A stretch of 30,187 bases of DNA from a virus, in IMG/VR virus record IMGVR_UViG_3300037486_000588, positions 1-30,187 of that record; one strand, 5' to 3'. The position numbers and the translations under genes are program-made. The notes below the pieces were generated by a model that saw only the letters and a list, made by a program, of their open reading frames with translations, made no database searches and was not told the origin of the DNA. Position 1 is the first letter of the stretch; each line of letters opens with the position of its first letter. This document shows positions 1,184-20,521 of this stretch, piece by piece.

Positions 1184-1217
1184 CAAATATAATAAAAGTT
1201 TATTAAATAAAAAAATA
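1184..1217 (-). promoter_or_regulatory. Phage promoter motif ahead of the tRNA cluster
   Basis: The minus strand carries TATTTTTTT, a 17-nt spacer, then TATATTTG, 18 nt before tRNA-Cys. The downstream box matches the Bacteroidetes TAnnTTTG element; the upstream T-tract replaces the usual TTTG. Eight further copies of the arrangement occur in the window. Confidence 0.7.
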
Positions 1218-1244
1218 TTTTTAAACAAATTTTCAAATAACTAT

Positions 1245-1274
1245 AATAAAAAACCCCCGCTTTTGGCGAGGGTT
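1245..1274 (-). terminator. Rho-independent terminator of the leftward block
   Basis: On the minus strand an 8-bp stem (ACCCTCGC / GCGGGGGT, with one G-U pair) has loop CAAAA and is followed by a run of T. It stands between the last leftward genes and the promoter of the tRNA cluster. Confidence 0.88.
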
Positions 1275-1315
1275 CAATAAAAGGAGTATATAATAAATGA
1301 TACTAATCCATACGC

Positions 1316-1417
1316 CTAACTAGAACCCCCGTCCGTTTCAAAATAACATAACGGTAGCTGTTCACAAAATTGTTGTGGGAGTTGTGATAAAAACAAATAT
1401 GTATGGTTACGTATCAT
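1316..1417 (-). CDS. Possible 33-aa protein, unknown
   Basis: A short frame (MIRNHTYLFLSQLPQQF..., stop at 1316) fills most of the 330-base gap between the gene at 1496-1726 and the tRNA cluster, and the terminator follows about 40 bases later. The stretch is clearly less AT-rich than the flanking intergenic DNA, which argues that it is functional. It could equally be a small non-coding RNA. The gap holds nothing else recognisable apart from AT-rich sequence at 1418-1495. Confidence 0.3.
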   Translation of the reverse strand: MIRNHTYLFLSQLPQQFCEQLPLCYFETDGGSS

Positions 1418-1495
1418 CTAGATTTATTTTTTTTATATATTAATAACTAATTTATTGATTATATATACTTATTGTAAAAAGTTTTAATTTTATGA

Positions 1496-1726
1496 TTAAA
1501 TATTTTCATTAAATATTTTTACAAGATATAATGATTCTTGTCTTTGTAAAAGTTCTTCGTTTAAACGATTCCATAAATCTCTTGTATTTACTACTTCGTT
1601 TTTCTTGGCCGATTTGACGTAATTATATATTAATTGTCTGCAATTTTCAATTTGTTCTTCATTTTGGCAAGAATTAATCTTATTGATAATTTTTTTCACC
1701 GGTATTAAAACGCTTTTGCTTTTCAT
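1496..1726 (-). CDS. Hypothetical protein, 76 aa
   Basis: I do not recognise this small basic protein. It is predicted to be mostly helical (KKIINKINSCQNEEQIENCRQ and following) with two cysteines at a spacing of about nine. An upstream ATG would overlap the previous gene by about 30 bases. The ATG at 1726 follows that gene's stop by ten bases with an A-rich leader, so I prefer it. It is the last clear gene before the terminator at 1245-1274. Confidence 0.6.
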   Translation of the reverse strand: MKSKSVLIPVKKIINKINSCQNEEQIENCRQLIYNYVKSAKKNEVVNTRDLWNRLNEELLQRQESLYLVKIFNENI

Positions 1727-1736
1727 AATATTAATT

Positions 1737-2033
1737 TTAACTATCGGGAATTTTCCAGTATATTTCAAAAAATTCCTCTTTATTTTTATAAGACAGCATG
1801 TTTATTTGTTTACTTATTATAAAATCATACCATCGTTTTTCTAAATCATCTACTCTTTGTAATTTTCCTTCTTTGTGTCTATTCATTAAATCTATTACAA
1901 AATCCCAATTATTTATAATTTCTAAAACCGTGTCATTTTGTATTATATATTCAGGTAATTGTTGTGCTGGCTGTGCTTGTTGTGGGTTAAATGGCATTCC
2001 ATTAAAAAATGCCTGAAAAAACTGTTGTGCCAT
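1737..2033 (-). CDS. Hypothetical protein, 98 aa
   Basis: The N-terminus is low-complexity and rich in Gln, Pro and Phe (AQQFFQAFFNGMPFNPQQ, residues 2-19). A compact helical, tryptophan-containing part follows (NNWDFVIDLM, EKRWYDFII, EIYWKIPDS). There is no recognised domain and no signal peptide. It lies 29 bases downstream of the gene at 2063-2329 and is probably co-transcribed with it. Confidence 0.65.
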   Translation of the reverse strand: MAQQFFQAFFNGMPFNPQQAQPAQQLPEYIIQNDTVLEIINNWDFVIDLMNRHKEGKLQRVDDLEKRWYDFIISKQINMLSYKNKEEFFEIYWKIPDS

Positions 2034-2062
2034 ATATTTTTATGTTAAACTATAATTATTGT

Positions 2063-2329
2063 TTATTTTTGTCTTTCAATGTCATACATATAATAATTTC
2101 CCAACATTAAATCTAATTGAGAAACAGAAATTAATTCAAGATTTTCGCGTGTCCAATTTTCGTATTTAGAATCATCTCTTTGACCGGCTATCTTTAATAA
2201 TGTATTAATTAATTCGTCTTTTAAATTTTCGTTTAAGTAATCATTTAAGTCTTCATCTGTGTGTTCTGTCACTATTTTTTCATTTATTTTATTTATGTTT
2301 TCTATCGCGCTTAGCTTTTTTAGGAACAT
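2063..2329 (-). CDS. Hypothetical protein, 88 aa
   Basis: An acidic, helical protein without a recognised domain. Its start overlaps the last 41 bases of the protease gene at 2289-3065. No later methionine gives a sensible product, so the overlap is probably real. The long overlap suggests translational coupling with the protease. Whether it acts with the protease, for example as an inhibitor or partner, is speculation. Confidence 0.6.
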   Translation of the reverse strand: MFLKKLSAIENINKINEKIVTEHTDEDLNDYLNENLKDELINTLLKIAGQRDDSKYENWTRENLELISVSQLDLMLGNYYMYDIERQK

Positions 2330-3065
2330 ATTCTTCTACTTTTTTGGCCAAATTTTGAGAATTTGAATCTGCATCTATAGCTGTCCAAATTTCCCAATGC
2401 ATGCCAAAATCACTAAATGGATAATATGTATATCCATAATCACCCCACTGAGCACTCCAAGAATTTCGAATAATAAATTTATCCTTTAGCCATCCTACAA
2501 CAGTTACTGCATGTCCGCCCAGCATATTTTGTCCAGTAAAATCTGGCTTCCAAAAATCCATTTTTTGGGGATTATATACAGGAAAAGCAATATAACAGGG
2601 GCCATTTGCAAATAAAGCCTTTTTCAATAAATCCATAGTATTAATTTGAGCATACCCCTGAATTTTATATGAACTGGCTATTGAACGAAGTATGCTATCA
2701 ATAGGTTTAGGACTTAAATAAGGATAATCTGCTTCAGAAACAATTCCAATTTTATAAAGAATGTCCATTGTATTTCTTGGGTACATGCCTTCTTGTGTTA
2801 TATCTTCTCTTAATTTGTAAACGAACCAAGGAGACATATGTTCTTTAAATTCAATATCTACAAATTCTTGCCATTCTTTTAATGCTGCCGCTGTTTGAGC
2901 TGAACAGGTTCCTTCGGTTCCTTGATCTCTTATAGATCTCATTTGATCTCTCATATCCCACTTTGTTGGTAAAACAACAGGCTCAGGATAAATAGTTTCA
3001 AGCATTAAATCTCGAGGATCAGTTGGAGATTTTTTAAGATTAAATTTGTACAATTTTGGATCCAT
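2289..3065 (-). CDS. Papain-like cysteine peptidase (C1A family)
   Basis: The 258-aa protein shows the papain catalytic set: oxyanion Gln48 and nucleophile Cys54 in RDQGTEGTCSAQ, His185 in GGHAVTVVGW, and Asn201 in RNSWSAQWGDYGY. The Gln-to-Cys spacing of six matches papain. There is no clear signal peptide, and the roughly 35-residue N-terminal extension is too short for a classical inhibitory pro-region, so it may act in the cytoplasm or be a virion protein. It follows a terminator (3095-3128), so it probably has its own promoter in 3066-3095, where I see no copy of the common motif. The family call is firm; the substrate is unknown. Confidence 0.88.
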   Translation of the reverse strand: MDPKLYKFNLKKSPTDPRDLMLETIYPEPVVLPTKWDMRDQMRSIRDQGTEGTCSAQTAAALKEWQEFVDIEFKEHMSPWFVYKLREDITQEGMYPRNTMDILYKIGIVSEADYPYLSPKPIDSILRSIASSYKIQGYAQINTMDLLKKALFANGPCYIAFPVYNPQKMDFWKPDFTGQNMLGGHAVTVVGWLKDKFIIRNSWSAQWGDYGYTYYPFSDFGMHWEIWTAIDADSNSQNLAKKVEEYVPKKAKRDRKHK

Positions 3066-3094
3066 ATTTATAAAATTATTTTATTTATATATCT

Positions 3095-3128
3095 AAAATT
3101 AAAAAATTCTCAAAGTTAATTTGAGAAT
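3095..3128 (-). terminator. Rho-independent terminator
   Basis: On the minus strand a perfect 9-bp stem ATTCTCAAA / TTTGAGAAT has loop TTAAC and is followed by TTTTT. It lies between the HD-domain gene and the protease gene and would separate their transcripts. Confidence 0.8.
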
Positions 3129-3156
3129 AAGAATATAAAAATTAAACAATTATGTT

Positions 3157-3762
3157 TTATTTAGGTTTTAAATCTCGTTTTTCTTCTATGGTCATAGATA
3201 GCATATCTGCGCAATGTATCAATCTTACTAATGGGTGATCTATTGCTTGATTATATGCATAATTTTGAATACTATTAGAAAAATTTACGCTCATTTCAGT
3301 AGCACCCATGTGCCAACGAATAGCCATTGCTTCTGCGTCTGTAAGTTTTACAAAATTTGAAATAAGATATACACTTTTTTCGCCGTGTCCAAGAGGAAAG
3401 TCATCTTTTACAACCCACCCATAATAATCCTTCCATTTACCTGCGTCATCTTTAGTCCATTTTTGCTCTTTTTTATAAATATTTGTTTTACAAATATCAT
3501 GAAATAAAGAACATAACACAACAGATTCGTGTAAATATTCAAGATCTGGATTTACGCTTTTTATTAAATTAAAATTATGAAGAGCAAATCGAAGAACTAT
3601 CATGGTATGTTCAAGTAATCCGCCTTCATAATTTCCGTGAAAATTTGTTGATGCAGGAGCAGTAAAAAAATCAGTATCTGTGTTTAGCCACATTACTAAA
3701 TTATTAACACCATCTCTTTTAATAAATGATATTGCTTTATTGAAATTTTCCATATCTGTCAT
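3157..3762 (-). CDS. HD-domain phosphohydrolase (YhaM-like)
   Basis: Metal-binding HD-superfamily residues are visible in order: His52 in GGLLEHTMIV, His88-Asp89 in LCSLFHDICK, His126 in LGHGEKS, His151 in RWHMG and Asp186 in HCADMLS. The GGLLEHT plus LFHDICK arrangement resembles the HD part of YhaM-type 3'-5' exoribonucleases, but the OB-fold nucleic-acid-binding domain of YhaM is absent. Nuclease and nucleotide phosphohydrolase activities are both possible. The start overlaps the stop of the glucosaminidase gene by four bases (ATGA), indicating coupled translation. Confidence 0.8.
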   Translation of the reverse strand: MTDMENFNKAISFIKRDGVNNLVMWLNTDTDFFTAPASTNFHGNYEGGLLEHTMIVLRFALHNFNLIKSVNPDLEYLHESVVLCSLFHDICKTNIYKKEQKWTKDDAGKWKDYYGWVVKDDFPLGHGEKSVYLISNFVKLTDAEAMAIRWHMGATEMSVNFSNSIQNYAYNQAIDHPLVRLIHCADMLSMTIEEKRDLKPK

Positions 3763-4436
3763 AATTCTGTCATTAAATTAACATTAATAGTGTATAGATC
3801 TTGATCTCCTAAATATTTTTTTGTATGTTCTCTCACTTGTATTAAACTATCTATTTTGGTTCTTGATTCAATTTTATTACATATATTAATTAATTTTTCT
3901 TCGTAAGTTATATTAGTAGCATATCTTTTTCCGTTTATATCAACAAAACTTTCATTTAAAAGATTTGAGATTTCCTTTCCTACTAAATATTTAGTTCTTA
4001 ATAATTTCATATATGGTTCTACAGAATGATTAGGATCTTTATATGTGTATAATATAGTTCCATTATCATATGTTCCTACGTTAAATACCGAATTTGTTTT
4101 TGCAGCCATTCCTTTAGTTCCAAATTGAGATTCTAATTGTCCTTGCGCAAGTACTAATTTAATATCTATATTATAGAAATCACTTAAATATACTATAAGT
4201 TCGGCACTTAATAACGACCCTTCTCCATTAGATTTAATATAATAATTAATTTCTTGAATTAATCTTAATGTAGTTATGCCGTATACTTCTTTTTGTTGCA
4301 ACTCGTATTTTTTCCAATAATCCTTTGCGTTGCTAGATTCACCTCCTGTTTTTGTAATACTACAAAATATAAAAATTATAAAAAATATTTTTAAAGAGGA
4401 TTTTTTTAATGTGTTTAAGTTTTTTGTCCATTTCAT
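3759..4436 (-). CDS. Glucosaminidase-type peptidoglycan hydrolase with N-terminal signal/anchor
   Basis: Residues 14-27 form a hydrophobic signal or anchor segment after a lysine-rich start. Residues from about 80 to 150 match the glucosaminidase (GH73, FlgJ/LytG-like) fold: LVLAQGQLESQFGTKG with the likely catalytic Glu102, then SVFNVGTYDNGT and the YKDPNHSVEPYMKLL segment. The protein would cut the glycan backbone of peptidoglycan outside the inner membrane. It is a good candidate for the endolysin (signal-arrest-release or lipoprotein type; FIFCS is only a weak lipobox). No holin is recognisable next to it, and HD and unknown genes flank it. Confidence 0.85.
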   Translation of the reverse strand: MKWTKNLNTLKKSSLKIFFIIFIFCSITKTGGESSNAKDYWKKYELQQKEVYGITTLRLIQEINYYIKSNGEGSLLSAELIVYLSDFYNIDIKLVLAQGQLESQFGTKGMAAKTNSVFNVGTYDNGTILYTYKDPNHSVEPYMKLLRTKYLVGKEISNLLNESFVDINGKRYATNITYEEKLINICNKIESRTKIDSLIQVREHTKKYLGDQDLYTINVNLMTEL

Positions 4437-4462
4437 AATTTTTTTATTTAGTTAGACATCAG

Positions 4463-5002
4463 TTATTCTGTAAAAAGCGATATGCTATTTGCATGATAAT
4501 CAGTATCTTCATCTCTACTTATATTAATAGAAGATATTACTACTTCATAATCACTTTCATCAGATTCTTTTTCATTTATAACATATTTTATTGTGCTTGT
4601 AAGTTTTTCTCCTTCTTGAAGTTTTTTCAAAATCATATATGATCTGTCTTTAAGTTCACCATCAATTAATTTAAGTGTTTTAAACATTAAAAGTTCTTCT
4701 TCTTCTATTAGGCGAATAACGCAATTCATTCCACTTCCCTGAAGAAGAAGATATTTTGATTTATTTTGGTTTAAAGAAAAGTGTAATACATCTTTTGAAA
4801 AAATACCCCCTCTGCCGTGACTCCAATTTTTAAATTGAATTCCGGTTGTCATAGGAGGAAGTACTACAGTATGATGTCCGTCTAAAATAGTAATTATAAA
4901 ATTATCAATAACATTTGGTACTATTTGATCAATAGTTAAATCTCGAGTTGTATAATTCAAATTTTCTATTGATTCATCAGTTTGAGTTTTAGATTTTGTC
5001 AT
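4463..5002 (-). CDS. Hypothetical protein, 179 aa
   Basis: I do not recognise this acidic protein. Residues 27-90 alternate hydrophobic residues as in beta strands (FIITILDGHHTVVLPP), and the C-terminal half is Glu/Asp-rich. It has no signal peptide or membrane segment. Its start lies inside the last 14 bases of the gene at 4989-5201. It stands directly upstream of the glucosaminidase in the same operon. Confidence 0.65.
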   Translation of the reverse strand: MTKSKTQTDESIENLNYTTRDLTIDQIVPNVIDNFIITILDGHHTVVLPPMTTGIQFKNWSHGRGGIFSKDVLHFSLNQNKSKYLLLQGSGMNCVIRLIEEEELLMFKTLKLIDGELKDRSYMILKKLQEGEKLTSTIKYVINEKESDESDYEVVISSINISRDEDTDYHANSISLFTE

Positions 5003-5201
5003 GGTTTATAAATTTATATGCGGTTAATTCAATTATTTGTTTTGCTGAATTATATTGTTCGGCTTCAATCATTTTTTTAATTTTTCCTGCCCATGTACTT
5101 GGGTCTATAATCATATCTTCCTGCGTAAGATATTCATGAACTTTTTTAATATTACCCTTTTCATAAATTTTAATAATCTCTTTTACTCGAGGTTCTTTCA
5201 T
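4989..5201 (-). CDS. Hypothetical protein, 70 aa
   Basis: A small helical protein without a recognised domain. I chose the second in-frame methionine (MKEPRVKEI, at 5201) because it gives a four-base ATGA overlap with the previous gene. The first would overlap by 25 bases. The helix pattern could be a small tetratricopeptide-like hairpin, but this is weak. Confidence 0.6.
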   Translation of the reverse strand: MKEPRVKEIIKIYEKGNIKKVHEYLTQEDMIIDPSTWAGKIKKMIEAEQYNSAKQIIELTAYKFINHDKI

Positions 5202-5449
5202 ATATTTATAAATTGAATCCAATAACGATAAATTTCATCTATAAGTAGCCACTTTTGTCTTAAATCATCGTTTATAATTAAATATCTGGTTTTTCCTTCT
5301 TTAAAAAATATAACTGTATTGTTATCTTTCCAATCGATAAACTTTTTTACATGAGATGCTATTTCTTTAGATGCGCCTATATGAGCTTCATTAACTCCTC
5401 TAAATTCGTTATAATTTTTATCTATTATATTGAGTATTGTATTTTCCAT
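5198..5449 (-). CDS. Hypothetical protein, 83 aa
   Basis: A compact unknown protein with an aromatic C-terminus (WLLIDEIYRYWIQFI). It overlaps the previous gene by one base (TAATG) and the next by four, typical of tight translational coupling in this operon. I see no motif that suggests a function. Confidence 0.65.
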   Translation of the reverse strand: MENTILNIIDKNYNEFRGVNEAHIGASKEIASHVKKFIDWKDNNTVIFFKEGKTRYLIINDDLRQKWLLIDEIYRYWIQFINI

Positions 5450-5865
5450 TATTTTTGTTTTATCATGTTTTCAAATTCTTTGAGTTCTTTTACCATATCA
5501 TTTTGAAAAAATTCAAGTGCATCTCTTACAGAATGCGGATCTATTTCAAATGTTTTGCAATATTCCTTTATAGTATCATTGCTTACATTTATTTTTTTTT
5601 CTTTAATTTCTTGAGATTTTTTAGCTCCTGTAGTATACATCCAGCCTGGAACAGAGCTATATTTTGACCTTAAGAATTTTTGCCACCAATCTATTACTGC
5701 TTGCTGATTAATTTTTAAATGTTGTAAAACATTAGCTTCCATTGGGAACTGAATCGCAAATCTCCGTTGACACATAAAAAAATGTTTTCTTTTCTCACTA
5801 GGAGAAATCGAAGAATAATCGCTTGGCCTATTAAATATTACCTTTATGAATTCAAATAATTCCAT
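5449..5865 (-). CDS. Hypothetical protein, 138 aa
   Basis: Aromatic and basic, mostly helical (KRKHFFMCQRRFAIQFP; INQQAVIDWWQKFLRSKY), ending in a charged helix (KELKEFENMIKQK). It has no known motif. It is in the same operon as the nuclease and clamp-loader genes. A clamp-loader small subunit (gp62-like) would be expected near a gp44-like protein, and this is one candidate by size and context. I cannot support that from the sequence alone. Confidence 0.65.
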   Translation of the reverse strand: MELFEFIKVIFNRPSDYSSISPSEKRKHFFMCQRRFAIQFPMEANVLQHLKINQQAVIDWWQKFLRSKYSSVPGWMYTTGAKKSQEIKEKKINVSNDTIKEYCKTFEIDPHSVRDALEFFQNDMVKELKEFENMIKQK

Positions 5866-5878
5866 TTTCTATTTAATG

Positions 5879-6130: not shown

Positions 6131-6152
6131 ATTTTATTTTTTTATATGTGTT

Positions 6153-6245: not shown

Positions 6246-6249
6246 TAAT

Positions 6250-7696: not shown

Positions 7697-7706
7697 TGGT
7701 TTATTT

Positions 7707-8174
7707 TTATAATATAAGTTTATTAATAATTTCTTGTTTTTTGCCGGTTTGTTTTATACCTTCCATAAATGAACAACATATAGTAAAATGATTACTTGGT
7801 ATCCAAAATCTTAAATCAAGATCGTCAATAGCAACCCAAGATGCTGGCTTAATTTTATCTGCATGTTCTAATATTTCTCTAGCTCTAACTTCTTCAAGTA
7901 ATTGTAAAGTTTTGCCTGGCAATGATTTGGTTACGTCAATAGGAGCTTTTGACACTTTTTGCCAAATGAATATTTCTTGTAAATCGTTTAATGAATAAAA
8001 ATCTTTCCAATCACTGGACACAACGATATCTGCATTCGTTTCTTTTAATATTTCATTTAAAATTTTTACAGCTTTCGCGTTAAATCGATGAACATATCCC
8101 CATCTTGTAAGCTTTGGATGCATTTCACTGCCTAATGATAATACGCCATCTATATCTAAATATATAAGTTTCAT
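7707..8174 (-). CDS. HAD-like phosphatase
   Basis: Motif I is DIDGV (Asp7, Asp9), with the nucleophile four residues after a beta strand. Motif II is VVSSDW (Ser53/Ser54) and motif IV is AIDDLDL (Asp117-Asp118). At 155 aa without a large cap it resembles small phage HAD proteins, such as those related to the polynucleotide 3'-phosphatase and Swiss-army-knife RNA-repair HAD domains. Nucleotide or nucleic-acid end processing is therefore likely, the exact substrate unknown. The start is certain because motif I begins at residue 4. A promoter box ends only four bases before the ATG, so the mRNA may be leaderless. Confidence 0.82.
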   Translation of the reverse strand: MKLIYLDIDGVLSLGSEMHPKLTRWGYVHRFNAKAVKILNEILKETNADIVVSSDWKDFYSLNDLQEIFIWQKVSKAPIDVTKSLPGKTLQLLEEVRAREILEHADKIKPASWVAIDDLDLRFWIPSNHFTICCSFMEGIKQTGKKQEIINKLIL

Positions 8175-8178
8175 AGTG

Positions 8179-8210
8179 TAAATATAATAAAAATAATTGA
8201 AAAAATAAAG
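8179..8210 (-). promoter_or_regulatory. Phage promoter motif ahead of the HAD gene
   Basis: TATATTTA (8179-8186) lies four bases before the ATG of the HAD gene. A T-rich tract (CTTTATTTTTT) lies upstream. The spacing is less regular than in the other copies, so the upstream box is uncertain. Confidence 0.5.
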
Positions 8211-8237
8211 CGCTATGTATTAAAACGATGTTAAATA

Positions 8238-8888: not shown

Positions 8889-9845
8889 TTACGAATTTAT
8901 TATTAATTGTAACTTATAGACGCAGCTTAAAAGAGTAATTAAAGAATCGATAACCATTGTTCTTTGGGCCTGATGTTCTGCAACAGCAATTATAATCAAC
9001 GGAATTTTATCTATTTTTTTAGGAACATTTATTTTAATGTATTCTACTAAATTTGTTCCTAACGCATTAAGTGCATCATCAACACGAGAAGAATATTCAC
9101 CTACAATAAATTTATAATTTTCGTAAGGTTTATCAGGTGTGTTTAAACATAATTTATATAAATCTTCAAAATCAAAATTAATATTAAAATTTTTATCATC
9201 TAATTTTGTAATTCCTCGAATATAAAAAGATTGAATCTTATTCATTAATGCTCTCATATCAGGAAAATCATTATGAACAAATTTATCTAATATTTCTTCA
9301 GAATAAGTTATTTTTGCAGCATTCATTATCAATGCTATTCTTTTCTTATATTCATTTATTACATAAATTTCTTCTTCATCATTTATAGTATCGAAGGATA
9401 TACAATTAAATCTTGATAATACTCCTTCTGGAATTTTTTGAATATAATTAGTAGATGCTATAAATCTTGCAACATTTGCGTATTTTTCCATGGGAACCTT
9501 TATAGCATCGAAGAATGCTGAGCTTGCTCCATCAAGTTCATCTATTATAACACATTTAAGTTTTTCTTTGCCGCCATCTAAAGAAATAGCTGCGCAAAAT
9601 TTAGAAATTTTATTTCTAACTGTTTCAATGTTTGCTTCTTCTCTTGCGTTTATTAATAATGATGGGTAATTTTTAGACAAAACTCCCATTGCACTAGTTT
9701 TTCCAGTTCCTGGCCTACCATACAATAAAAGGTTTTGAATTAAACCTTTTGCCAATTGTGCTTTTATTCTTTCTGGCACAATCAGACTCGAAAGCTCCTT
9801 TGGACGAAACTTTTCTGTAAATAATTGATCTATAGTACGACTCAT
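8889..9845 (-). CDS. Sliding-clamp loader large subunit, AAA+ ATPase (T4 gp44-like)
   Basis: The N-terminus (TEKFRPKELSSLIVP) is typical of clamp-loader ATPases. Walker A is GRPGTGKT (43-50), Walker B VIIDELD (Asp102-Glu103), sensor 1 STN (131-133), and the SRF arginine finger motif has Arg145. The 318-aa length agrees with T4 gp44 (about 320). Such proteins open the ring-shaped clamp and place it on primed DNA in an ATP-dependent pentamer. The small subunit (gp62) and the clamp are not recognisable in the window. It is in a leftward operon with a 58-aa gene six bases upstream. Confidence 0.93.
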   Translation of the reverse strand: MSRTIDQLFTEKFRPKELSSLIVPERIKAQLAKGLIQNLLLYGRPGTGKTSAMGVLSKNYPSLLINAREEANIETVRNKISKFCAAISLDGGKEKLKCVIIDELDGASSAFFDAIKVPMEKYANVARFIASTNYIQKIPEGVLSRFNCISFDTINDEEEIYVINEYKKRIALIMNAAKITYSEEILDKFVHNDFPDMRALMNKIQSFYIRGITKLDDKNFNINFDFEDLYKLCLNTPDKPYENYKFIVGEYSSRVDDALNALGTNLVEYIKINVPKKIDKIPLIIIAVAEHQAQRTMVIDSLITLLSCVYKLQLIINS

Positions 9846-10032: not shown

Positions 10033-11190
10033 TTATTTTATACGTTTTTTTCTAAAAGTTTTTGAGTCCGGCGAATTATTTATCAAAATATTATTAATAC
10101 GCAAAATATTTGATATTTTTTTTATAAACTCATCTTCATTAACCGAATATATTATTTCTCCTTTATATGTAAATCTATATTCATCTACAATATGATCTAA
10201 ACAAGTAATAACTAAAGTTTTATTTTTAGATTTTTTTATATTTTCATCTTTTTCAATACCATATTGAATTAAATCTAAATCTAATAAAGAACGTCGAAAT
10301 TCTCCTTGCCATTTTCCTTTTACATTAGTTTCGTTTGGATTAGATTTAATATTATGTACTTTAGATTCATTTGTCATAGGGCCATTTCCATGTCTAGTCT
10401 GATATGCTCTTGTTACTAAATAATATTCTATTTCTTCATGTTTTAAAATATCAACGATATTTTTACTACCTAAATTAGAACGAGTTACATGCGGAAAAAA
10501 TCCGAAATTTTGATCTAACAATAGCCCCTGAGAACTTTCAAAAATATAAGTTTGATTAAACGATATTGATTGTAAATTTCCTTCTTTAATATAATCCTTT
10601 AATAGTATTAACTGATTACACGCAATTATAAAATTAGCTAATTGTTGTTTTAAATCTTTTATTTGTTCTATATCTATATTAAGTATTTTTGCGTAATATT
10701 CTTCTATCATTTGCAATTTCTTATCAAAAATAATAGGATATTTTAAATCGCTAAAAACTAAAGAATAGTGATTTTCTTCGCGTTCGACAGTTGCAGCAAA
10801 GCCTACACCACAACTACCGTGTTTATTTTTTAATTCAGTTTGTTTATTATAAATTTTATCGAATGGAGTTGTTATAGGACAATTTACATCAATGAATAAT
10901 TTTGGTATAATATCGATTTTGGTTAATGATTCTATTTCATTGATTATTCCAACGGGGTCTATGGTACAAAATTTTGACCAATAAGTGGGTACACCACTCA
11001 ATGTTCCAGATCCAAAATTAGAAAAAACATGTTTTTTTTCTTTATCTACAACAGTATGTCCAACTTGATGCCCCCCACAATATCTTATTACAAGAGGAAT
11101 AGGGTATTGGCCACAAAGATAATTGACTACTGAGCCTTTTCCTTCATCGCCAAACCCTAATCCTACTACCGCTATAGCTGCAGAATTCAT
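10033..11190 (-). CDS. Adenylosuccinate synthetase-like enzyme (PurA/PurZ superfamily)
   Basis: The P-loop-like start is VVGLGFGDEGKGS: catalytic Asp15 and Lys18 are kept, but the usual Gln-Trp before GDEGKG is Gly-Phe. GGHQVGHT keeps the second catalytic His (His45), with Asn of GGHNAGHT changed to Gln. ESSQGLLLD corresponds to EGAQGTLLD and FPHVTRSN to the YPYVTSSN motif. The GTP-base motif NKLD is replaced by TCLD, so nucleotide use may differ. At 385 aa it is shorter than cellular PurA (about 430). PurA adds aspartate to IMP; phage PurZ adds it to dGMP for diaminopurine DNA and generally lacks the catalytic Asp, so this one may be PurA-like. It is ATGA-coupled to the VWA gene. Confidence 0.85.
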   Translation of the reverse strand: MNSAAIAVVGLGFGDEGKGSVVNYLCGQYPIPLVIRYCGGHQVGHTVVDKEKKHVFSNFGSGTLSGVPTYWSKFCTIDPVGIINEIESLTKIDIIPKLFIDVNCPITTPFDKIYNKQTELKNKHGSCGVGFAATVEREENHYSLVFSDLKYPIIFDKKLQMIEEYYAKILNIDIEQIKDLKQQLANFIIACNQLILLKDYIKEGNLQSISFNQTYIFESSQGLLLDQNFGFFPHVTRSNLGSKNIVDILKHEEIEYYLVTRAYQTRHGNGPMTNESKVHNIKSNPNETNVKGKWQGEFRRSLLDLDLIQYGIEKDENIKKSKNKTLVITCLDHIVDEYRFTYKGEIIYSVNEDEFIKKISNILRINNILINNSPDSKTFRKKRIK

Positions 11191-12421: not shown

Positions 12422-12455
12422 TAAATATATTACATGTTTATCAATTTAAAAAATA
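12422..12455 (-). promoter_or_regulatory. Phage promoter motif ahead of the VWA operon
   Basis: TATTTTTTA, a 17-nt spacer and TATATTTA stand in the 88-base gap upstream of the gene at 12041-12385. The leader to the ATG is about 36 bases. The downstream box lies in a short inverted repeat (ATGTAA / TTACAT) that could be an operator. Confidence 0.68.
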
Positions 12456-12805: not shown

Positions 12806-13126
12806 TTATAAAGTATTAAGTACCTTTAACATTTCTTCGTATGCTGTAAGTTTGCCATGAATAAAATTGGCAAGAAGTTTTTCATCACCTTTAAGCTTTT
12901 TAAGCTCATCGTTCATTTCGAATTGATTATCTGTGATGGCTTTCATTATGAGCATTATAAGCTTATCATTTTTAGTTTCTGTGTAAGATTTATCAAAATC
13001 TATTCTAGCAGTAATTGCTTCAGCAACAAAACGGGGATTAAAATGACTTGAAGGATCTAATTGTCCTGTTAAAGTTTTTTGAAGAATTAAAATAATGATG
13101 TCTTTTGCTCTATCTGTTAGTTCCAT
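12806..13126 (-). CDS. Hypothetical protein, 106 aa
   Basis: An all-helical protein (DRAKDIIILILQKTLTGQ; RFVAEAITARIDF; LLANFIHGKLTAYEEMLKVL) without a recognised motif. It is the first gene after the promoter motif at 13145-13177, with a leader of about 18 bases, and is followed after two bases by the gene at 12474-12803. Confidence 0.66.
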   Translation of the reverse strand: MELTDRAKDIIILILQKTLTGQLDPSSHFNPRFVAEAITARIDFDKSYTETKNDKLIMLIMKAITDNQFEMNDELKKLKGDEKLLANFIHGKLTAYEEMLKVLNTL

Positions 13127-13144: not shown

Positions 13145-13177
13145 TAAATATAAATATTATTTTTTAAATAAAAAATA
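13145..13177 (-). promoter_or_regulatory. Phage promoter motif ahead of the gene at 12806-13126
   Basis: The minus strand has TATTTTTTA, a 16-nt spacer and TATATTTA. It lies in the 67-base gap behind the 43-aa gene and points to the gene at 12806-13126. Confidence 0.68.
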
Positions 13178-13508: not shown

Positions 13509-13509
13509 T

Positions 13510-13680
13510 TTATTCAATTGTAATAAATAAATCAGATTGAAATAAGGACCATTGACAAATATCTTTCCTAAATTCAGAATAGTTATCTTCAATAAACCAT
13601 ACTGCATGTTCTTTTGTTCGGAATTGTCCAAGAACTCGAAGTATCACGTTACCACTTCTTAATAATACTAATTTATTCAT
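13510..13680 (-). CDS. Hypothetical protein, 56 aa
   Basis: A small alpha/beta protein (NKLVLLRSGNVILRVLGQF; HAVWFIEDNYSEF). I chose the second in-frame methionine, at 13680, which overlaps the end of the regulator gene by eight bases (AATGAATAA). The pattern of two strands, a helix and an aromatic tail is typical of small phage host-interaction proteins, but no family is recognised. Confidence 0.6.
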   Translation of the reverse strand: MNKLVLLRSGNVILRVLGQFRTKEHAVWFIEDNYSEFRKDICQWSLFQSDLFITIE

Positions 13681-14452
13681 TTTTTTTGTATAAATAAGGA
13701 TCATAATCTAATATTAAACCTATACCAGAAATATTTTTTACTGTAAGTTTTATTTTATTATTTTTAAATGTATTACGAAGATATGATATGTAAACATCCA
13801 TACTTCTTCCGGCAAAATAATCTGTCTTTCTCCAAACTTTTTCAAGAATGATTTCTTTTTTTACAACTTCTTTATAATTATTTGCAAGTATTTCAAGAAT
13901 GCCGCCCTCTTTTTGAGAAAGTCGTTTAACATCTTTTATTACATATTCAGGTTTTTTCTTTTGTGCTATTTCTTCTTCTGTTTGTGGAAGCTTTATTCTA
14001 TGAGAAAGTAATCTACGCGATGGATCATAAATACAATCTGCAAATTCAATTTTTTCAAGTAACTTTGTAGTTAGTTTTTTAAGTATTGTAAACGTTTTAA
14101 TGTATGTATCAATATTATACAATATCATTTCAGAAAAAGTATAATATGCAGAAGCTCCCTCAAATCTCAAAGGCTTATCAACATAAATATCTGCTGCAAT
14201 ATTAAATGTTCTTTCTGTTACAATAACGCCTATTACTGGAATATAAGGATTACTTTTCTTTATAAAATCTACTGCTCTTTTAAAATAAGGATTACTGTTA
14301 GAAAGAACATACGCATCTATGTCTTCTTTTTCAATATGATCAAAAAGTACAGATTCTACTTTTGTTACTATTATTTCGGCATTTTTTTCTTTGGCAACTT
14401 TAATGAATTCATTTATAAACTCATTATCATCTGTATTAACAGCGATTTTCAT
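13673..14452 (-). CDS. OmpR/PhoB-type transcription regulator with degenerate receiver domain
   Basis: The C-terminus (about 172-250) is a winged helix of the OmpR/PhoB kind: LSQKEGGILEILANN, then KKEIILEKVW, then RSMDVYISYLRNTFK (recognition helix) and ISGIGLIL (wing). Residues 1-100 follow a receiver layout, with the late Lys kept (VDKPL, Lys93). The phospho-acceptor strand reads DAYVLSNSNP, so the Asp is missing and the early acidic pair is weak. Control by phosphorylation is unlikely. It is the first gene after a promoter flanked by GTTAAA repeats that could be its own operator. It may switch phage gene classes. Confidence 0.8.
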   Translation of the reverse strand: MKIAVNTDDNEFINEFIKVAKEKNAEIIVTKVESVLFDHIEKEDIDAYVLSNSNPYFKRAVDFIKKSNPYIPVIGVIVTERTFNIAADIYVDKPLRFEGASAYYTFSEMILYNIDTYIKTFTILKKLTTKLLEKIEFADCIYDPSRRLLSHRIKLPQTEEEIAQKKKPEYVIKDVKRLSQKEGGILEILANNYKEVVKKEIILEKVWRKTDYFAGRSMDVYISYLRNTFKNNKIKLTVKNISGIGLILDYDPYLYKKNE

Positions 14453-14473
14453 GTGTGTTGTGTTAAATTAATG

Positions 14474-14508
14474 TAAATATAACAAATTGTTAAAAATTAA
14501 AAAAATTT
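14474..14508 (-). promoter_or_regulatory. Phage promoter motif ahead of the regulator gene
   Basis: The minus strand has AAATTTTTT, an 18-nt spacer and TATATTTA, about 21 bases before the ATG. It is the most divergent upstream box of the set. Confidence 0.58.
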
Positions 14509-14530: not shown

Positions 14531-14543
14531 TTTTAATAAAAAT

Positions 14544-15792: not shown

Positions 15793-15813
15793 CTTTTTAT
15801 AATTTTTGTTAAG

Positions 15814-15847
15814 TAAATATAACTATTTTTATTGATACTAAAAAATA
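15814..15847 (-). promoter_or_regulatory. Phage promoter motif ahead of the glycosyltransferase operon
   Basis: The minus strand has GTTAAAAATATTTTTTA, a 17-nt spacer and TATATTTA, about 21 bases before the ATG. It sits between the cupin gene and the operon, so the cupin and peptidase genes may form a separate unit. Confidence 0.72.
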
Positions 15848-15861
15848 TTTTTAACAGATTT

Positions 15862-16236
15862 TTAATTTTTTTCTATATATTCGTCTCGCTTTACTAAATG
15901 TTCCTGAAATGCAGGAATACAAATCGCCATATAACTAGCAATATTATATGGAGTGCTGAATTGAACCCATTCTCCCTTGCTTACCATAATTAACTGACCA
16001 TCAGCAACTCTATATTCTTTATCTTTTAATAATACATTAATGCTGCCTCTCATAACATATACATATTCATCAAATTCAGCAATTTGCCCAGGTTCTTTCC
16101 ATCCTTTTTGCGCTGTCATAAAAGCAATACTAATATCTTCTTGATCGGTACGAACTTTTCCAATGTATTCTTCGATAATTTTTTCGTTTATACCATGTCC
16201 TCTTATTACAGAAGGAATACTAATTAATTTTGCCAT
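15862..16236 (-). CDS. Cupin-domain protein
   Basis: A single cupin barrel of 124 aa: EFDEYVYVMRGSINVLLKD is cupin motif 1-like (metal ligands partly replaced), and DGQLIMVSKGEWVQFSTP is cupin motif 2-like. The usual HxH pair of motif 1 is not present, so metal binding is uncertain and a catalytic role is doubtful. Single-domain cupins are often sugar epimerases, dioxygenases or ligand sensors. It lies six bases downstream of the secreted peptidase. Confidence 0.75.
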   Translation of the reverse strand: MAKLISIPSVIRGHGINEKIIEEYIGKVRTDQEDISIAFMTAQKGWKEPGQIAEFDEYVYVMRGSINVLLKDKEYRVADGQLIMVSKGEWVQFSTPYNIASYMAICIPAFQEHLVKRDEYIEKN

Positions 16237-16242
16237 AGTTTT

Positions 16243-16998
16243 TTAATTTAATCGTTTATAATATAATTCTGGTTTTAAAATTTCTTGATAATTTGGTGGT
16301 TTATTACTTATTAATAATTCTATGCCTTGCTCTAAATTCATTGTATCTAATATAGGACGCAAAAAATCTACTGAATATTGATACATAACAAGATATCTAT
16401 TATCTGTATTGACTACATCTTCATTTGTTTTAGGAATGAAAACGTTTTTGTGATATACATTTTCTTTAGCTTTAATTACCGTATATTCACAAACTCCTTC
16501 TTCTATAAATTCTGATCCGAATTGTAATTCAAGTTGAGGAAAAATACGAAATGATCCATATTCAGAACATACGTATTCATTTCGTTGTTTTCTTTTTAAG
16601 ATAGTTTGGTTAAATAACGCATGAGTTAATTCATGAAATAACACAGCTTTTACAGTTCTGTCTGTAAAAGCTGTGTTTCGTTGTTTATATTTAGAAAGAT
16701 TAAAAAATTCATAATCAACATATCTTTCTTCGTTTGTTAAAATAATATAATCAGGATCATAAAATCTTCCTAATTCTAAAGTATCGTAATCATACATTTC
16801 ACTTAGATTGTCAACTTCAATATAAACATCATATATAGAATCAATTTTGCATTCATATTCTCCAATCAATTTTTCCTCGTTTTGCCTTATAAAATATTCT
16901 ATTCCTTTAGATGATGGGCGACCTTTGTGGTAAAGATCATCTTGCTTAAATCCTATAGTTAATATTAAAATTAATAAAATCGAAAGAAAGATTTTCAT
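16243..16998 (-). CDS. Secreted HExxH zinc metallopeptidase-like protein
   Basis: Starting at 16998, the protein opens with a signal peptide (MKIFLSILLILILTIGF, about 1-17). The zinc-binding motif is FHELTHALFN (His122, Glu123, His126), and EFIEEGVCEY (163-172) likely gives the third, glutamate ligand. At 251 aa it fits a gluzincin-like peptidase outside the cytoplasm. Possible roles are envelope damage, release or superinfection control. The promoter box ends six bases before this ATG, so the mRNA is probably leaderless; the nearest upstream alternative is a TTG inside the promoter. Confidence 0.82.
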   Translation of the reverse strand: MKIFLSILLILILTIGFKQDDLYHKGRPSSKGIEYFIRQNEEKLIGEYECKIDSIYDVYIEVDNLSEMYDYDTLELGRFYDPDYIILTNEERYVDYEFFNLSKYKQRNTAFTDRTVKAVLFHELTHALFNQTILKRKQRNEYVCSEYGSFRIFPQLELQFGSEFIEEGVCEYTVIKAKENVYHKNVFIPKTNEDVVNTDNRYLVMYQYSVDFLRPILDTMNLEQGIELLISNKPPNYQEILKPELYYKRLN

Positions 16999-17004
16999 AG
17001 AATA

Positions 17005-17038
17005 CAAATATAATTAATTATTTTATACAAAAAAAATA
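17005..17038 (-). promoter_or_regulatory. Promoter motif, start of the leftward block
   Basis: The minus strand has GTTAAAATATTTTTTTT, a 17-nt spacer and TATATTTG. The box ends six bases before the peptidase ATG. It is one of the best copies and heads the whole leftward block. Confidence 0.75.
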
Positions 17039-17080
17039 TTTTAACAAAATTTTATAAAACTTTTCTATACCTTATATATA

Positions 17081-17115
17081 CACGACGACGCGTGCAGGCG
17101 TACACGTGTACAGAG
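17081..17115. promoter_or_regulatory. GC-rich island with perfect 12-bp palindrome
   Basis: In the otherwise AT-rich divergent gap, a short island (CACGACGACGCGTGCAGGCG...) contains the perfect palindrome GTACACGTGTAC at 17100-17111 and ACGCGT nearby. It stands between the two divergent promoters. A repressor operator or replication-related site is possible. The rest of the 252-base gap (17116-17202) holds no other recognisable element. Confidence 0.5.
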
Positions 17116-17202
17116 ACTTTTAATATATTGAGATGCTTCAGGTACTATTTTTATGCTCATCTGGAAATAAGTTTTATTAAGTATGTTAATTTTTTATTAA
17201 AT

Positions 17203-17236
17203 TATTTTTTTATTTCAAACTCTTTTATTATATTTG
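17203..17236 (+). promoter_or_regulatory. Promoter motif, start of the rightward block
   Basis: TATTTTTTT, a 17-nt spacer and TATATTTG, with about 23 bases of leader before the ATG at 17260. The sequence is almost identical to the tRNA promoter at 1184-1217. Confidence 0.77.
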
Positions 17237-17259
17237 TTTATTATTTGAATATATAAAAT

Positions 17260-17457
17260 ATGAAAGAAGTTGGATTTAATAAATTAGAATTAAACAGATT
17301 AGATGAAGCAATTCTTTCAGTTCTTTATGAAGTTTATCCTTTAGAATTAACAGAAACTGAAATAATGATGAAAATAATTGAAAAAGATTTACTTCATATG
17401 TCAGAAGAAGAATTTATAAAATATAGAAGACAGCTTGTACAATCAAGAGAAAATTAA
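17260..17457 (+). CDS. Hypothetical protein, 65 aa, possible winged-helix fragment
   Basis: A short helical protein with a pattern reminiscent of a small winged helix (RLDEAILSVLYEVYPLELTETEIMMKII), which could bind DNA. It ends two bases before the YkuK-like gene and is probably coupled to it. It is the first gene of the rightward operon. The DNA-binding idea rests only on the helix pattern. Confidence 0.62.
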   Translation: MKEVGFNKLELNRLDEAILSVLYEVYPLELTETEIMMKIIEKDLLHMSEEEFIKYRRQLVQSREN

Positions 17458-17459
17458 AC

Positions 17460-17972
17460 ATGGAAAAATTAGTATTTAAAAAAGTAGACAACACGATTGT
17501 AGATGACGTAGAAAAATACGTAAAGGATTGGACTAAAGATAATCCTTATGGAAAAGTTATGATTGGTTGTGACTCTCAGATGCATGGACGTAGAATTAAA
17601 TATTCTATTGTTATCGTTATGCACCGCATTGACAGAATGGGAGTTGGACATGGAGGTCACGTTCTTCTTGCTGATTTGTGGGAAAAGAGAAAAACTAACT
17701 CACCTGTTGAAGAAATGCCAACAAAACTTTGGAAAGAAGCTGAATATACTCTTATGGCAGCTCAAATGGTTGATGGTAAAGATGAAATGTTCAAGAAAAG
17801 AATAGTTCTTCACCTTGACTTCAACTCAGTACCTGAAGCTAATTCTCATGAAAATAAATCATATATGATGTTTGCTGCAGGCCTTGGATATCTTGAAGGT
17901 ATGGGTTATTATGCAGAAGGTAAACCTCACGCATATGTAGCAACTCATACAGCAGATGCATTTTGTAGATAA
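17460..17972 (+). CDS. YkuK-like RNase H-fold protein (DUF458 type)
   Basis: The 170-aa protein shows the strand-plus-acidic-residue plan of RNase H folds: VMIGCDSQMHGRRIKYSIVIVM with Asp38, LHLDFNSV with Asp120, and a final Asp166 in THTADAF. IGCDSQ followed by a basic strand is typical of the YkuK family, predicted to be RNase H-like nucleases. The substrate is not known; processing of phage or host RNA or DNA junctions is plausible. It is followed by a 12-bp hairpin. Confidence 0.8.
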   Translation: MEKLVFKKVDNTIVDDVEKYVKDWTKDNPYGKVMIGCDSQMHGRRIKYSIVIVMHRIDRMGVGHGGHVLLADLWEKRKTNSPVEEMPTKLWKEAEYTLMAAQMVDGKDEMFKKRIVLHLDFNSVPEANSHENKSYMMFAAGLGYLEGMGYYAEGKPHAYVATHTADAFCR

Positions 17973-17975
17973 ACT

Positions 17976-18001
17976 AAGAGCCTGATATGTATCAGGTTCT
18001 T
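17976..18001 (+). terminator. Hairpin after the YkuK-like gene
   Basis: A 12-bp stem (AAGAGCCTGATA / TATCAGGTTCTT, one G-U pair) with a two-base TG turn begins just after the stop codon. The following sequence (ATAATAC) is only partly T-rich, so it may be a weak terminator or an mRNA-stabilising end. Confidence 0.55.
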
Positions 18002-18016
18002 ATAATACATAAAAAT

Positions 18017-18328
18017 ATGAAAACTTTTTTAACAGGAAACGTAATTAAAACTGCCTATGGACACATAGAAATTGTGTTTAAGGTAAGAGACGATAACTAT
18101 ATAGAAACGATTCCTATAGAATATACTAATACTACTATAGGACATTATAGAGAAGATAAAACTTATAAGCGTAATTGTGATTGCGGCGGATTTAATGAAG
18201 ATTGCTTAACTTGCGCTGGTTCAGGAACAGATGAATATGAGATTTTAGGTTTTGAAAGAGCAGAATTTATTGCTGCCACTGTTAAAGATTATATTATTGC
18301 ATCTATTACTAAAAATTTTAATTTTTAA
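18017..18328 (+). CDS. Small zinc-binding protein, 103 aa
   Basis: The core motif CDCGGFNEDCLTCAGSG resembles one half of a DnaJ-type zinc centre (CxCxG...CxxCxGxG) and likely binds one zinc. The surrounding strands (HIEIVFKVRDDNYIETIPIEY) and a C-terminal helix complete the fold. I chose the ATG at 18017; the earlier one at 17987 lies inside the hairpin. The motif suggests binding of protein or nucleic acid, without a more exact call. Confidence 0.66.
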   Translation: MKTFLTGNVIKTAYGHIEIVFKVRDDNYIETIPIEYTNTTIGHYREDKTYKRNCDCGGFNEDCLTCAGSGTDEYEILGFERAEFIAATVKDYIIASITKNFNF

Positions 18329-18404
18329 AACATCTAAATTTTGATATAACTGAAACAAACTAAGCATTGAAAATATTTATAATGAATTTTTTAAAGAAGA
18401 AAAA

Positions 18405-19313
18405 ATGAAAGATGTAAAATGGCTTATTGAAGCAGATGTATTCGAAGATAATACTGATAAGTTAATTCAAACTCTTAAAGATAAGAATTATAAATATCAT
18501 ATTCTGAAGTATGTTCCGTTTGATGATGATCTGGCTGATAGATGTTTAAAGATTTATGGCCCAGATGAGTGTGTTATTTTTTATGGATCTCTTAATTTTG
18601 GAAAAAAACTTCGAAAACTTCCTTGGGTTCCTGGTGTTTATCTCAACGAAAAAGCATTTGAATGTACAAGTTATTATCCAATTCTGGGCCCACACATTGT
18701 TCATTCTAATTATGTTATGCTTCCGTATGGTGATTTAATACGTAGAAAAGATGATTTGTATACTTATTTTAACGATGACAAAATTTTTATACGTCCCAAT
18801 TCAGGAAACAAACAATTTACTGGAATGGTTGTTGAAAAATATAATTTTGACGATTGCGTTAAACTTGCCGGCTTTTATGATGTAGAGCCAGATTTGCTTG
18901 TAGTAGTTTCAAATGTATGTAAACTTGATCAAGAATGGAGATTCGTTATAGTTGATGGTAAAGTTATTTCCGGTAGTTTATATCGTGATTGGTCAAAACC
19001 TGAAAAAATATCGCCGGGAAGTGTTACGCGTGATTATGTATTAATGAATTCCTATAAAAGAATTGAAGAATGTTTTACAGGTGAATTTATTATGCATGAT
19101 AAATACGCTTGGAATGCTGCACAGAATTGCGCTGATAAATATAATCCAGATCATTGTTGGACTATAGATGTAGCAAAAACAATGAAGGGAACTTATGAAA
19201 TTTTAGAAGTTGGCTGTTTTTCTTGTGCCGGCATGTATGGTAATAATTTAGAAATCATAGTTGATAAAGTTTCAGAAGCAGCTTTAACTGAATGGAAAGA
19301 ATATAACGAATAA
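18405..19313 (+). CDS. ATP-grasp enzyme (R2K-type)
   Basis: The 302-aa protein has the layout of the R2K clade of ATP-grasp proteins. There is a Rossmann-like N-terminus, then KIFIRPNSGNKQFTG (nucleotide-binding strand and glycine loop, about 126-140), EWRFVIVDGKVISGSLYRDW, and the metal-binding end DVAKT...YEILEVGCFS.AGMYG. These enzymes use ATP to join a carboxylate to an amine or thiol. Phage members are thought to make or modify peptides, but the substrate is unknown. Its gene has its own 76-base leader, without a copy of the common promoter motif, and the next gene follows after 16 bases. Confidence 0.82.
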   Translation: MKDVKWLIEADVFEDNTDKLIQTLKDKNYKYHILKYVPFDDDLADRCLKIYGPDECVIFYGSLNFGKKLRKLPWVPGVYLNEKAFECTSYYPILGPHIVHSNYVMLPYGDLIRRKDDLYTYFNDDKIFIRPNSGNKQFTGMVVEKYNFDDCVKLAGFYDVEPDLLVVVSNVCKLDQEWRFVIVDGKVISGSLYRDWSKPEKISPGSVTRDYVLMNSYKRIEECFTGEFIMHDKYAWNAAQNCADKYNPDHCWTIDVAKTMKGTYEILEVGCFSCAGMYGNNLEIIVDKVSEAALTEWKEYNE

Positions 19314-19329
19314 ATAAAATAAAAACAAC

Positions 19330-19656
19330 ATGAAAAAAATAGTTAAAGAAAAATTAACTGAAAAAACAAATAGTATTTCCGCATATAATGTTTGGGTTAT
19401 TATGTCTTATGGAAGTACAGATGTTAACGAAATATTCTTAGATAAAATTGATGCTGAAAAAATTGCGAAACAAAGAAACGAAGATTATTATAATTATTAT
19501 CGTGAAAGACATAAAAATATGTCTGATAAAGAATTTGAAGAATATTTTAATTCACAACACATAAAACGTAGTAAAGATGAAGTTAAATCTTTATCTGACG
19601 CAATTGAATTGATTAAAGATGACATCAGAGCCGACGAGAGAATGGATGATGAATAA
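19330..19656 (+). CDS. Hypothetical protein, 108 aa
   Basis: The first half is a short beta-alpha unit (SAYNVWVIMSYGSTDVNEIFLDK) and the second half is highly charged and helical (NEDYYNYYRERHKNMSDKEFEEYF). There is no known domain. The strand-helix start with an aromatic pattern resembles a group of small phage proteins that sit beside metabolic genes. It ends one base before the lipoprotein gene. Confidence 0.63.
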   Translation: MKKIVKEKLTEKTNSISAYNVWVIMSYGSTDVNEIFLDKIDAEKIAKQRNEDYYNYYRERHKNMSDKEFEEYFNSQHIKRSKDEVKSLSDAIELIKDDIRADERMDDE

Positions 19657-19657
19657 T

Positions 19658-19996
19658 ATGAAAAAAATAACCCTTATATTAGCTTTATCATTATGTATGA
19701 TTTCTTGCAATAAATACATTGTAAAAAATGTATATGAAAGAAGTTATAATACTGAATATACTGCATTAATTGATATTTATAGCCAACTATATTCTTATGA
19801 TATTGATTCCGTGCCAATGAATTGCTGGATGACTAGTGAAATGACAATGGATACAATAAACATTTCTCAAAAAATTCTTGATAAAGAAATCAATAGTAAA
19901 TCGAGATATTCTTTCATTTTTACTAATTATACTTATCCACACAGTGTTATTTACCAATTTCTAATACGATTTGCTGGAAAGCAAAAAGATTTATGA
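19658..19996 (+). CDS. Putative lipoprotein, 112 aa
   Basis: From the ATG at 19658 the protein starts MKKITLILALSLCMISCNKY. This is a basic start, a hydrophobic core and a Cys (position 17) after a small residue, as for a type II signal peptide. The mature part of about 95 residues is mainly soluble and has one further Cys. A longer frame starting at 19619 would put 13 residues before the signal and is less likely. A superinfection-exclusion role is possible, as for other phage lipoproteins. It overlaps the phosphatase gene by four bases (ATGA). Confidence 0.72.
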   Translation: MKKITLILALSLCMISCNKYIVKNVYERSYNTEYTALIDIYSQLYSYDIDSVPMNCWMTSEMTMDTINISQKILDKEINSKSRYSFIFTNYTYPHSVIYQFLIRFAGKQKDL

Positions 19997-20478
19997 AAAT
20001 ATTAATATTAAGTAAGCAAAATTTTGACAAAATGATGCAATATAATGTTATTGATGATTATAATGTAGAATCTCAAGATATTATGTTTATTTCGATTTGT
20101 TCTCCACAAGATGATGATCAGCCTTATATATCAGAATTAAGTAAAAAATCTCATTTTAAAGAAGAACATCCAAATGTCAAAATTATGTATTTTGGAGATT
20201 ATTCGGGGGATCAAGTTTTAAACAATCCTCACGTATTTACACGAGGACACGCAAAAGAATTATATAAATTTATTAAAGAAAATGAAAATAAAGGTATGGC
20301 AATTATTCATTGCGGCGGCGGAATATCCCGTAGTGGTGCTATCGGAACTTTTATATTTGATTTATATGGCGATATGACTTTTGAGGAATTTAAAAGAAAA
20401 AATCCTCAAATTCAACCAAATTCTCATATATTACGATTATTACGTGAAGAATATAAGAAACACACAAGAATGAAATAA
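19993..20478 (+). CDS. Protein tyrosine / dual-specificity phosphatase-like (CX5R)
   Basis: The signature IIHCGGGISRSGAIG gives the nucleophile Cys107 and the phosphate-binding Arg113 at the CX5R spacing. A general acid is likely in YFGDYSGD (Asp69 or Asp73). The 161-aa single domain fits phage dual-specificity phosphatases. It would dephosphorylate proteins or other phospho-compounds in the cell. It is coupled to the lipoprotein gene by ATGA and is the last gene before a hairpin that overlaps the next promoter. Confidence 0.85.
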   Translation: MKILILSKQNFDKMMQYNVIDDYNVESQDIMFISICSPQDDDQPYISELSKKSHFKEEHPNVKIMYFGDYSGDQVLNNPHVFTRGHAKELYKFIKENENKGMAIIHCGGGISRSGAIGTFIFDLYGDMTFEEFKRKNPQIQPNSHILRLLREEYKKHTRMK

Positions 20479-20508
20479 AGTCTGAAATATTTTTTTATTT
20501 CAGACTTT
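20477..20508 (+). terminator. Hairpin overlapping the next promoter
   Basis: A perfect 13-bp stem (AAAGTCTGAAATA / TATTTCAGACTTT) with a six-T loop starts inside the phosphatase stop codon. The T-tract box of the promoter at 20488-20521 lies in the loop and arm. It may stop upstream transcripts while the DNA form promotes the next gene. Confidence 0.62.
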
Positions 20509-20521
20509 ATTGTTATATTTG
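20488..20521 (+). promoter_or_regulatory. Phage promoter motif ahead of the gene at 20551-20925
   Basis: TATTTTTTT, a 17-nt spacer and TATATTTG with a 29-base leader. It overlaps the hairpin at 20477-20508. Confidence 0.75.

Follow-up and report, generated by a model that had tools for sequence, protein, structure and literature searches.

A candidate early promoter class with a T-run in place of the −33 box, shared by a clade of large T4-type phages with presumed Bacteroidota hosts

Bacteroidota sigma-A (sigma-ABfr) promoters carry a TTTG box at −33 and a TAnnTTTG box at −7. The −33 box was found in B. thetaiotaomicron (Ryan et al., PMC7366714) and is barely visible in F. johnsoniae, in which AT-rich zones lie near −18 and −28 (Baez et al., PMC6847099). 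In phage T4, the early promoters extend beyond the host boxes, and the middle promoters depend on sigma appropriation by MotA/AsiA (PMC2988021). Neither a promoter map for giant Bacteroidota phages nor an earlier description of a promoter with a T-run as its upstream box was found in the searched literature, which left out the majority of subscription journals and any bioRxiv preprint. Here we analyzed the motif TATTTTTTWN{16,18}TATATTTR, hereafter the T-run motif, in a virus record of 30,187 bases (G000; IMG/VR record IMGVR_UViG_3300037486_000588), the whole of which is called the window. The results suggest that its nine copies represent one promoter class common to a clade of large T4-type phages with presumed Bacteroidota hosts.

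The pattern matched the window exactly at seven positions, namely 1184, 12422, 13145, 15814, and 17005 on the minus strand and 17203 and 20488 on the plus strand. No match was obtained with the reversed pattern in the window or with the pattern in 100 dinucleotide-preserving shuffles of the window. The initial annotation had listed nine copies; the two others are the copy at 14474 with one mismatch and a weak copy at 8179. A position matrix built on other phages only, with the window excluded and the threshold set at 14, independently recovered exactly these nine sites and no others, compared with 0.3 expected from shuffles. As also claimed there, all nine copies face a gene: eight are followed by an ATG 4–36 nt downstream, and the copy at 1184 is followed by a tRNA-Cys gene 18 nt downstream. 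The fibre genes were correctly described as lacking the motif, with no copy from 22842 on.

The −7 box was TATATTTG or its variant ending in A in 9/9 window copies, the final base being A instead of G in about half. The extended consensus consists of AAAATAAT at −54, TATTTTTTTATNYCRA at −38, TATATTTR at −12, and C at −4, all at approximate positions. The A-rich stretches at −54 to −49 and −41 to −39, AT at −29/−28, Y(−26)C(−25)R(−24)A(−23), T at −13, and C at −4 were conserved though unused in site selection. Among the window copies, those at 17203, 20488, and 15814 have a clear YCR part; in the remaining copies it is degenerate. The GTTAAAAATA noted earlier in front of the first box is a partial feature, since the wider consensus is A-rich (AAAATAAT at −54 and AAA at −41). 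The distance from TTTTTT to TATATTTR showed a sharp peak at 17/18 nt in each phage with the motif. In the 430-kb record G046, 45 pairs were counted at 17/18 nt versus 0–14 at any other distance from 5 to 44 nt, with seven-T runs scoring at both 17 and 18 nt. No 17/18-nt peak was observed in G003, Sphingomonas phage PAU, or the examined parts of Lak-A1 and Tenacibaculum phage PTm1. About 80% of the matrix matches in the window and its relatives fell in the intergenic 6–9% of bases, and 182 of the 197 intergenic matches faced a gene on the same strand. The motif is thus not equally frequent inside genes or in the wrong orientation. The T-run formed the loop of an inverted repeat in 10–25% of the copies in G046, G012, and G016, compared with 3–6% after permutation; no such excess was detected in G031 and G019.

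Scans of public viral contigs with the motif only retrieved phage records of 66–434 kb with 10–26 copies each, mostly on one strand, and the reversed-motif control gave none or at most one copy in the motif-rich records. The copy numbers were 26 in G046 (430 kb), 22 in G407 (434 kb), 18 each in G408 (373 kb), G409 (344 kb), and G411 (256 kb), 17 in G406 (405 kb), 16 in G415 (126 kb), 15 in G031 (349 kb), 12 in G419 (66 kb), 11 each in G012 (183 kb) and G016 (80 kb), and 10 in G032 (323 kb). These records are not all independent because near copies are included, with identical sites in G406/G419 and in G408/G409/G415. Several of the retrieved phages are genuinely related to the window phage. 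G032, retrieved by the motif, is the closest relative of the window, sharing a clamp loader with 66% identity and a collinear gene block. On the other hand, G001 and G003, which were first retrieved via the window clamp loader (47%), lack the T-run class, and the motif was not clearly above the control in Lak, PAU, PTm1, PTm5, MaF61, and three uncultured phages of 635–642 kb. Because G001/G003, PAU, Lak, and PTm1 are without it, the class is a feature of a clade and not of all T4-type Bacteroidota phages. In PAU, a distant relative, the upstream words ACTGAAACTT, TTCGTAGTATAAT, and TATACATAT were strongly enriched, representing different promoter classes.

The nearest named phages to the window clamp loader (8889–9845, minus strand) were Prevotella Lak megaphages (43%) and Sphingomonas phage PAU (34%), and a 5′-3′ exonuclease is also encoded. 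The window is thus part of the genome of a large T4-type phage. Megablast of the window against named phages gave no match. The relatives and the −7 box point to a Bacteroidota host.

Any motif match was found in 69 of 296 Bacteroidota genomes, with a maximum of five per genome versus seven in the 30-kb window. The YCRA part was seen by eye in none among the host matches listed. Across 60 genomes from a single Bacteroidota family, a sample that need not include the phage's own host, the pairing occurred 361 times at 17/18 nt versus 412 times at 25/26 nt. The T-run promoter is not a general host signal in the genomes sampled. Ten Pelagibacteraceae genomes matched TTAAAAATATTTTTTTN15-17TTATATTTG exactly (10/11 matches in an exact genome-contig scan); these matches are perhaps one orthologous site and were not used as host evidence.

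In PTm1, the canonical TTTG-N18-20-TAHHTTTG pair gave a peak by the same method (18 versus 0 at shifted spacing), whereas no TTTG peak at 18–20 nt, corresponding to the −33 box, was found in the motif phages. The T-run therefore appears to occupy the place of TTTG, in agreement with the initial annotation, which had assigned the second box to the Bacteroidetes −7 element. In G031, the T-run was present at 20 of the 21 gap-located TAHHTTTG boxes.

A second class, with an GATATATA box about 10–50 nt before genes, was found in G046, G031, G012, G016, G019, and G003 and resembles the T4 late box. Its sole window copy found upstream of a gene, at 3086–3093 on the minus strand, precedes a peptidase-like gene (2289–3065). 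In G003, TAAAACTT was also enriched in gene gaps. The structural block of G046 (240–380 kb) contained 5 of 81 T-run promoters versus 23 of 62 GATATATA sites (Fisher p = 4e-6), and the G046 genes behind T-run promoters were shorter (151 versus 219 amino acids, p = 5e-4). The relatives encode a gp55-like late sigma factor (phrog_234) and an ECF-like sigma factor (phrog_1740). The latter is present in G046, G031, G012, G016, G032, and G001, and in G012 and G016 its gene lies directly behind a T-run promoter. This pattern of location, gene length, and sigma genes is consistent with a class used early or before replication. Besides the ECF-like and gp55-like factors, RpoD-like sigma factors about 300–340 amino acids long were observed in G046 (at 181 kb), G031 (at 70 kb), and Lak-B1. 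The initial annotation is extended here by the YCRA element at −26 to −23, the A-rich part farther upstream, the late class that complements the T-run class, and the distribution across the clade.

The explanation we consider somewhat more probable than its negation is that the T-run class is an early (pre-replicative) class read by the host sigma-A polymerase via the −7 box, whereas its −33/spacer element would be specific to the phages. TATATTTR would be contacted by host sigma-A region 2, the T-run (−36 to −30) would stand in place of the host TTTG box (−33), the A-rich stretch at −54 to −39 may act like an UP element, and transcription would start 4–5 nt past TATATTTR. The UP-like part, the T-run, and YCRA would together make a long, strong promoter that competes with those of the host in the manner of T4 early promoters. 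The nine sites would then drive transcription prior to structural gene expression. The products of the class in related phages would include the ECF-like sigma factor, and late genes would then move to the GATATATA promoters, presumably read by the gp55-like phage sigma.

That the host polymerase reads the T-run unaided by any new phage protein is favored only modestly over a phage-made reader. If the G031 contig is near complete, the T-run at 20 of its 21 boxes means that the class must include the first-used promoters, which argues for unmodified host polymerase. Two observations weigh on the other side. YCRA in the spacer is no known host feature and, with the phage-only distribution, also fits a phage-encoded activator. 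Seven G046 promoters within 10 kb (158–168 kb) combine TATATTTG with a different upstream box, TTAACGTTT..ATCGTT, suggesting that one upstream box can be exchanged for another and that each is read separately. As for the early timing, T-run promoters were only weakly depleted from the G046 structural block when compared with gaps alone (p = 0.07). The promoter class with a host-type −7 box proposed initially is supported; the modified or phage-changed polymerase contact is only a possibility, since the evidence fits an unmodified host polymerase as well as a phage reader.

A phage reader would make these sites middle-type promoters, with the host polymerase on TATATTTR and a phage DNA-binding protein on TATTTTTTTATNYCRA replacing the sigma region 4 contact. 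We regard this as possible but doubtful. The box is centred near −30 and consists of a stretch of A/T only and then the specific bases YCRA. This arrangement is unlike host promoters and agrees with such a reader, as do the phage-only distribution of the motif and the second swappable box in G046 with the same −7 element. However, no MotA DNA-binding domain (MotCF) was found above the cut-off in 16 records, a search that could miss remote homologues, and the OmpR-type regulator occurred only in the window and G032 among 12 records checked. None of the five proteins exclusive to motif phages clearly resembles a transcription factor, and nearly all host-type −7 boxes in G031 belong to the T-run class, leaving no other early class. 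Neither the MotA domain nor the OmpR-type regulator tracks the motif across the records searched. A tentative form of this explanation, to which we give the same low credence, is that the T-run and YCRA are the site of a phage-encoded, clade-wide activator that is not related to MotA and replaces the sigma region 4/−33 contact. Under the same joint reservation, the G046 TTAACGTTT..ATCGTT-type boxes would bind further exchangeable activators.

Recognition of the class by the phage ECF-like sigma phrog_1740 is unlikely. Its gene is present in every motif-rich record searched for sigma factors except G019 and the window, both of which are fragments, and the T-run promoters that precede it in two of them, G012 and G016, could reflect self-activation. 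However, the −7 box belongs to host sigma-A and is not an ECF-type −10 box, G001 carries the gene with almost no motif, and a promoter class that makes a sigma factor cannot need that sigma at the start.

The T-run class is still less likely to be an ordinary, not phage-specific promoter of an AT-rich Bacteroidota species. The AT-rich zones and nearly absent −33 motif of F. johnsoniae promoters are in line with this idea, and the sampled genomes need not include the phage's own host, but the host genome counts given above, both the pairing at 17/18 versus 25/26 nt and the few matches per genome, speak against it. Finally, it is highly improbable that the T-runs are intrinsic-terminator tails ahead of promoters in which the −7 box alone is functional, because, despite the excess of T-run loops in G046, G012, and G016 and the inverted repeat at 20488, hairpins are lacking at most copies and not in excess in G031 and G019, the T-run stands at a base-exact distance from the −7 box, and the divergent pair 17005/17203 has no need of a terminator.

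The individual window copies differ in strength and context. On the minus strand, the exact copy at 1184–1217 (spacer 17, score 24.9) faces a tRNA-Cys/tRNA-Gln run, with the tRNA-Cys starting at 1165. The copy at 8179–8212 is the weakest (score 15.1 versus the threshold of 14) and is doubtful; its T-run TATTTTTTC lies 12 nt upstream of TATATTTA, and its −7 box ends 4 nt before the ATG of a HAD-domain gene (7707–8174). The exact copy at 12422–12455 (spacer 17, score 20.0) faces 12385 and heads an operon with a PHROG_2971 protein and a PurA/PurZ-like synthetase. The copy at 13145–13177 (spacer 16, score 15.2) faces an open reading frame (ORF) at 12806–13126. The copy at 14474–14507, AATTTTTTT-N17-TATATTTA with one mismatch (score 19.1), faces the gene for the OmpR-type winged-helix regulator (13673–14452, minus strand), which thus has its own T-run promoter. 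The exact copy at 15814–15847 (YCRA = TCAA, score 24.1) faces 15792, where small ORFs are followed by a glycosyltransferase gene. The exact copy at 17005–17038 (score 18.6) has its ATG at 16998, 6 nt past the −7 box. Because the ATG is only 4 and 6 nt past the −7 box, nearly leaderless transcripts are expected at 8179/8174 and 17005/16998, respectively. On the plus strand, the exact copies at 17203–17236 (YCRA = TCAA, score 30.8), divergent from 17005, and 20488–20521 (TCAG, score 32.1) face ORFs at 17260 and 20551, respectively. In the latter, a perfect inverted repeat, AATAAAGTCTGAAATA/TATTTCAGACTTTATT, encloses the T-run as its loop. Between the divergent promoters, a GC-rich island at 17080–17118 contains the palindrome GTACACGTGTAC (17100–17111), and the GC skew switches sign there; the island is possibly an operator or origin.

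The PurA/PurZ-like adenylosuccinate synthetase (10033–11190, minus strand; PHROG_1211, Pfam Adenylsucc_synt) contains the P-loop GFGDEGKG, and its gene adjoins that of the PHROG_2971 protein in a block shared with G019. HD-type hydrolases are encoded at 3157–3762 and 20946–21452. Together with the synthetase block, they may belong to a modified-purine DNA pathway.

One scan with the motif retrieves giant Bacteroidota phages from metagenomes and flags likely early genes, including takeover, defence, and counter-defence candidates. The motif also supplies ready-made test promoters for a phylum with poorly understood −33 recognition. If a phage protein does read the T-run, it would constitute a second, independent route of sigma appropriation.

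Among known systems, Bacteroidota sigma-A promoters resemble the window class in TATATTTR, short leaders, and an AT-rich spacer. The window class differs in the T-run for TTTG, YCRA at −26 to −23, the A-rich −54 to −39 stretch, and fixed spacing, and T-run/−7 pairing was not above chance in the sampled genomes. PTm1 is likewise a T4-type phage with a Bacteroidota host and a host-type −7 box, but its promoters retain the canonical TTTG at −33, and the T-run class was not above the control there. Moraphages and Lak phages are also large T4-related phages of Bacteroidota hosts with sigma factors, which are core genes in moraphages (PMC12619734) and also occur in Lak; the motif is absent from Lak phages, and moraphages are likened here by description only. 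The gp55-read T4 late box TATAAATA is not matched by the T-run motif. T4 middle promoters, which pair the MotA box at −30 with the host −10, share with the class a host-type downstream box and, instead of the host upstream box, one near −30 that is specific to the phage. The sequences are unrelated, as the MotA box WWWTGCTTTA is not matched by the consensus TATTTTTTTATNYCRA, and the T-run box ends 10 bp from the −7 box, compared with 12 ± 1 for the MotA box and −10. T4 early promoters ('uber' UP/−35/TGn/−10, PMC2988021) likewise have a long consensus that extends past the host boxes, an UP-like upstream part, many copies, and mostly short non-structural genes downstream. The window class has other boxes and another host sigma. 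By analogy, T4 early and T4 middle promoters would be the functionally closest models for the T-run class.

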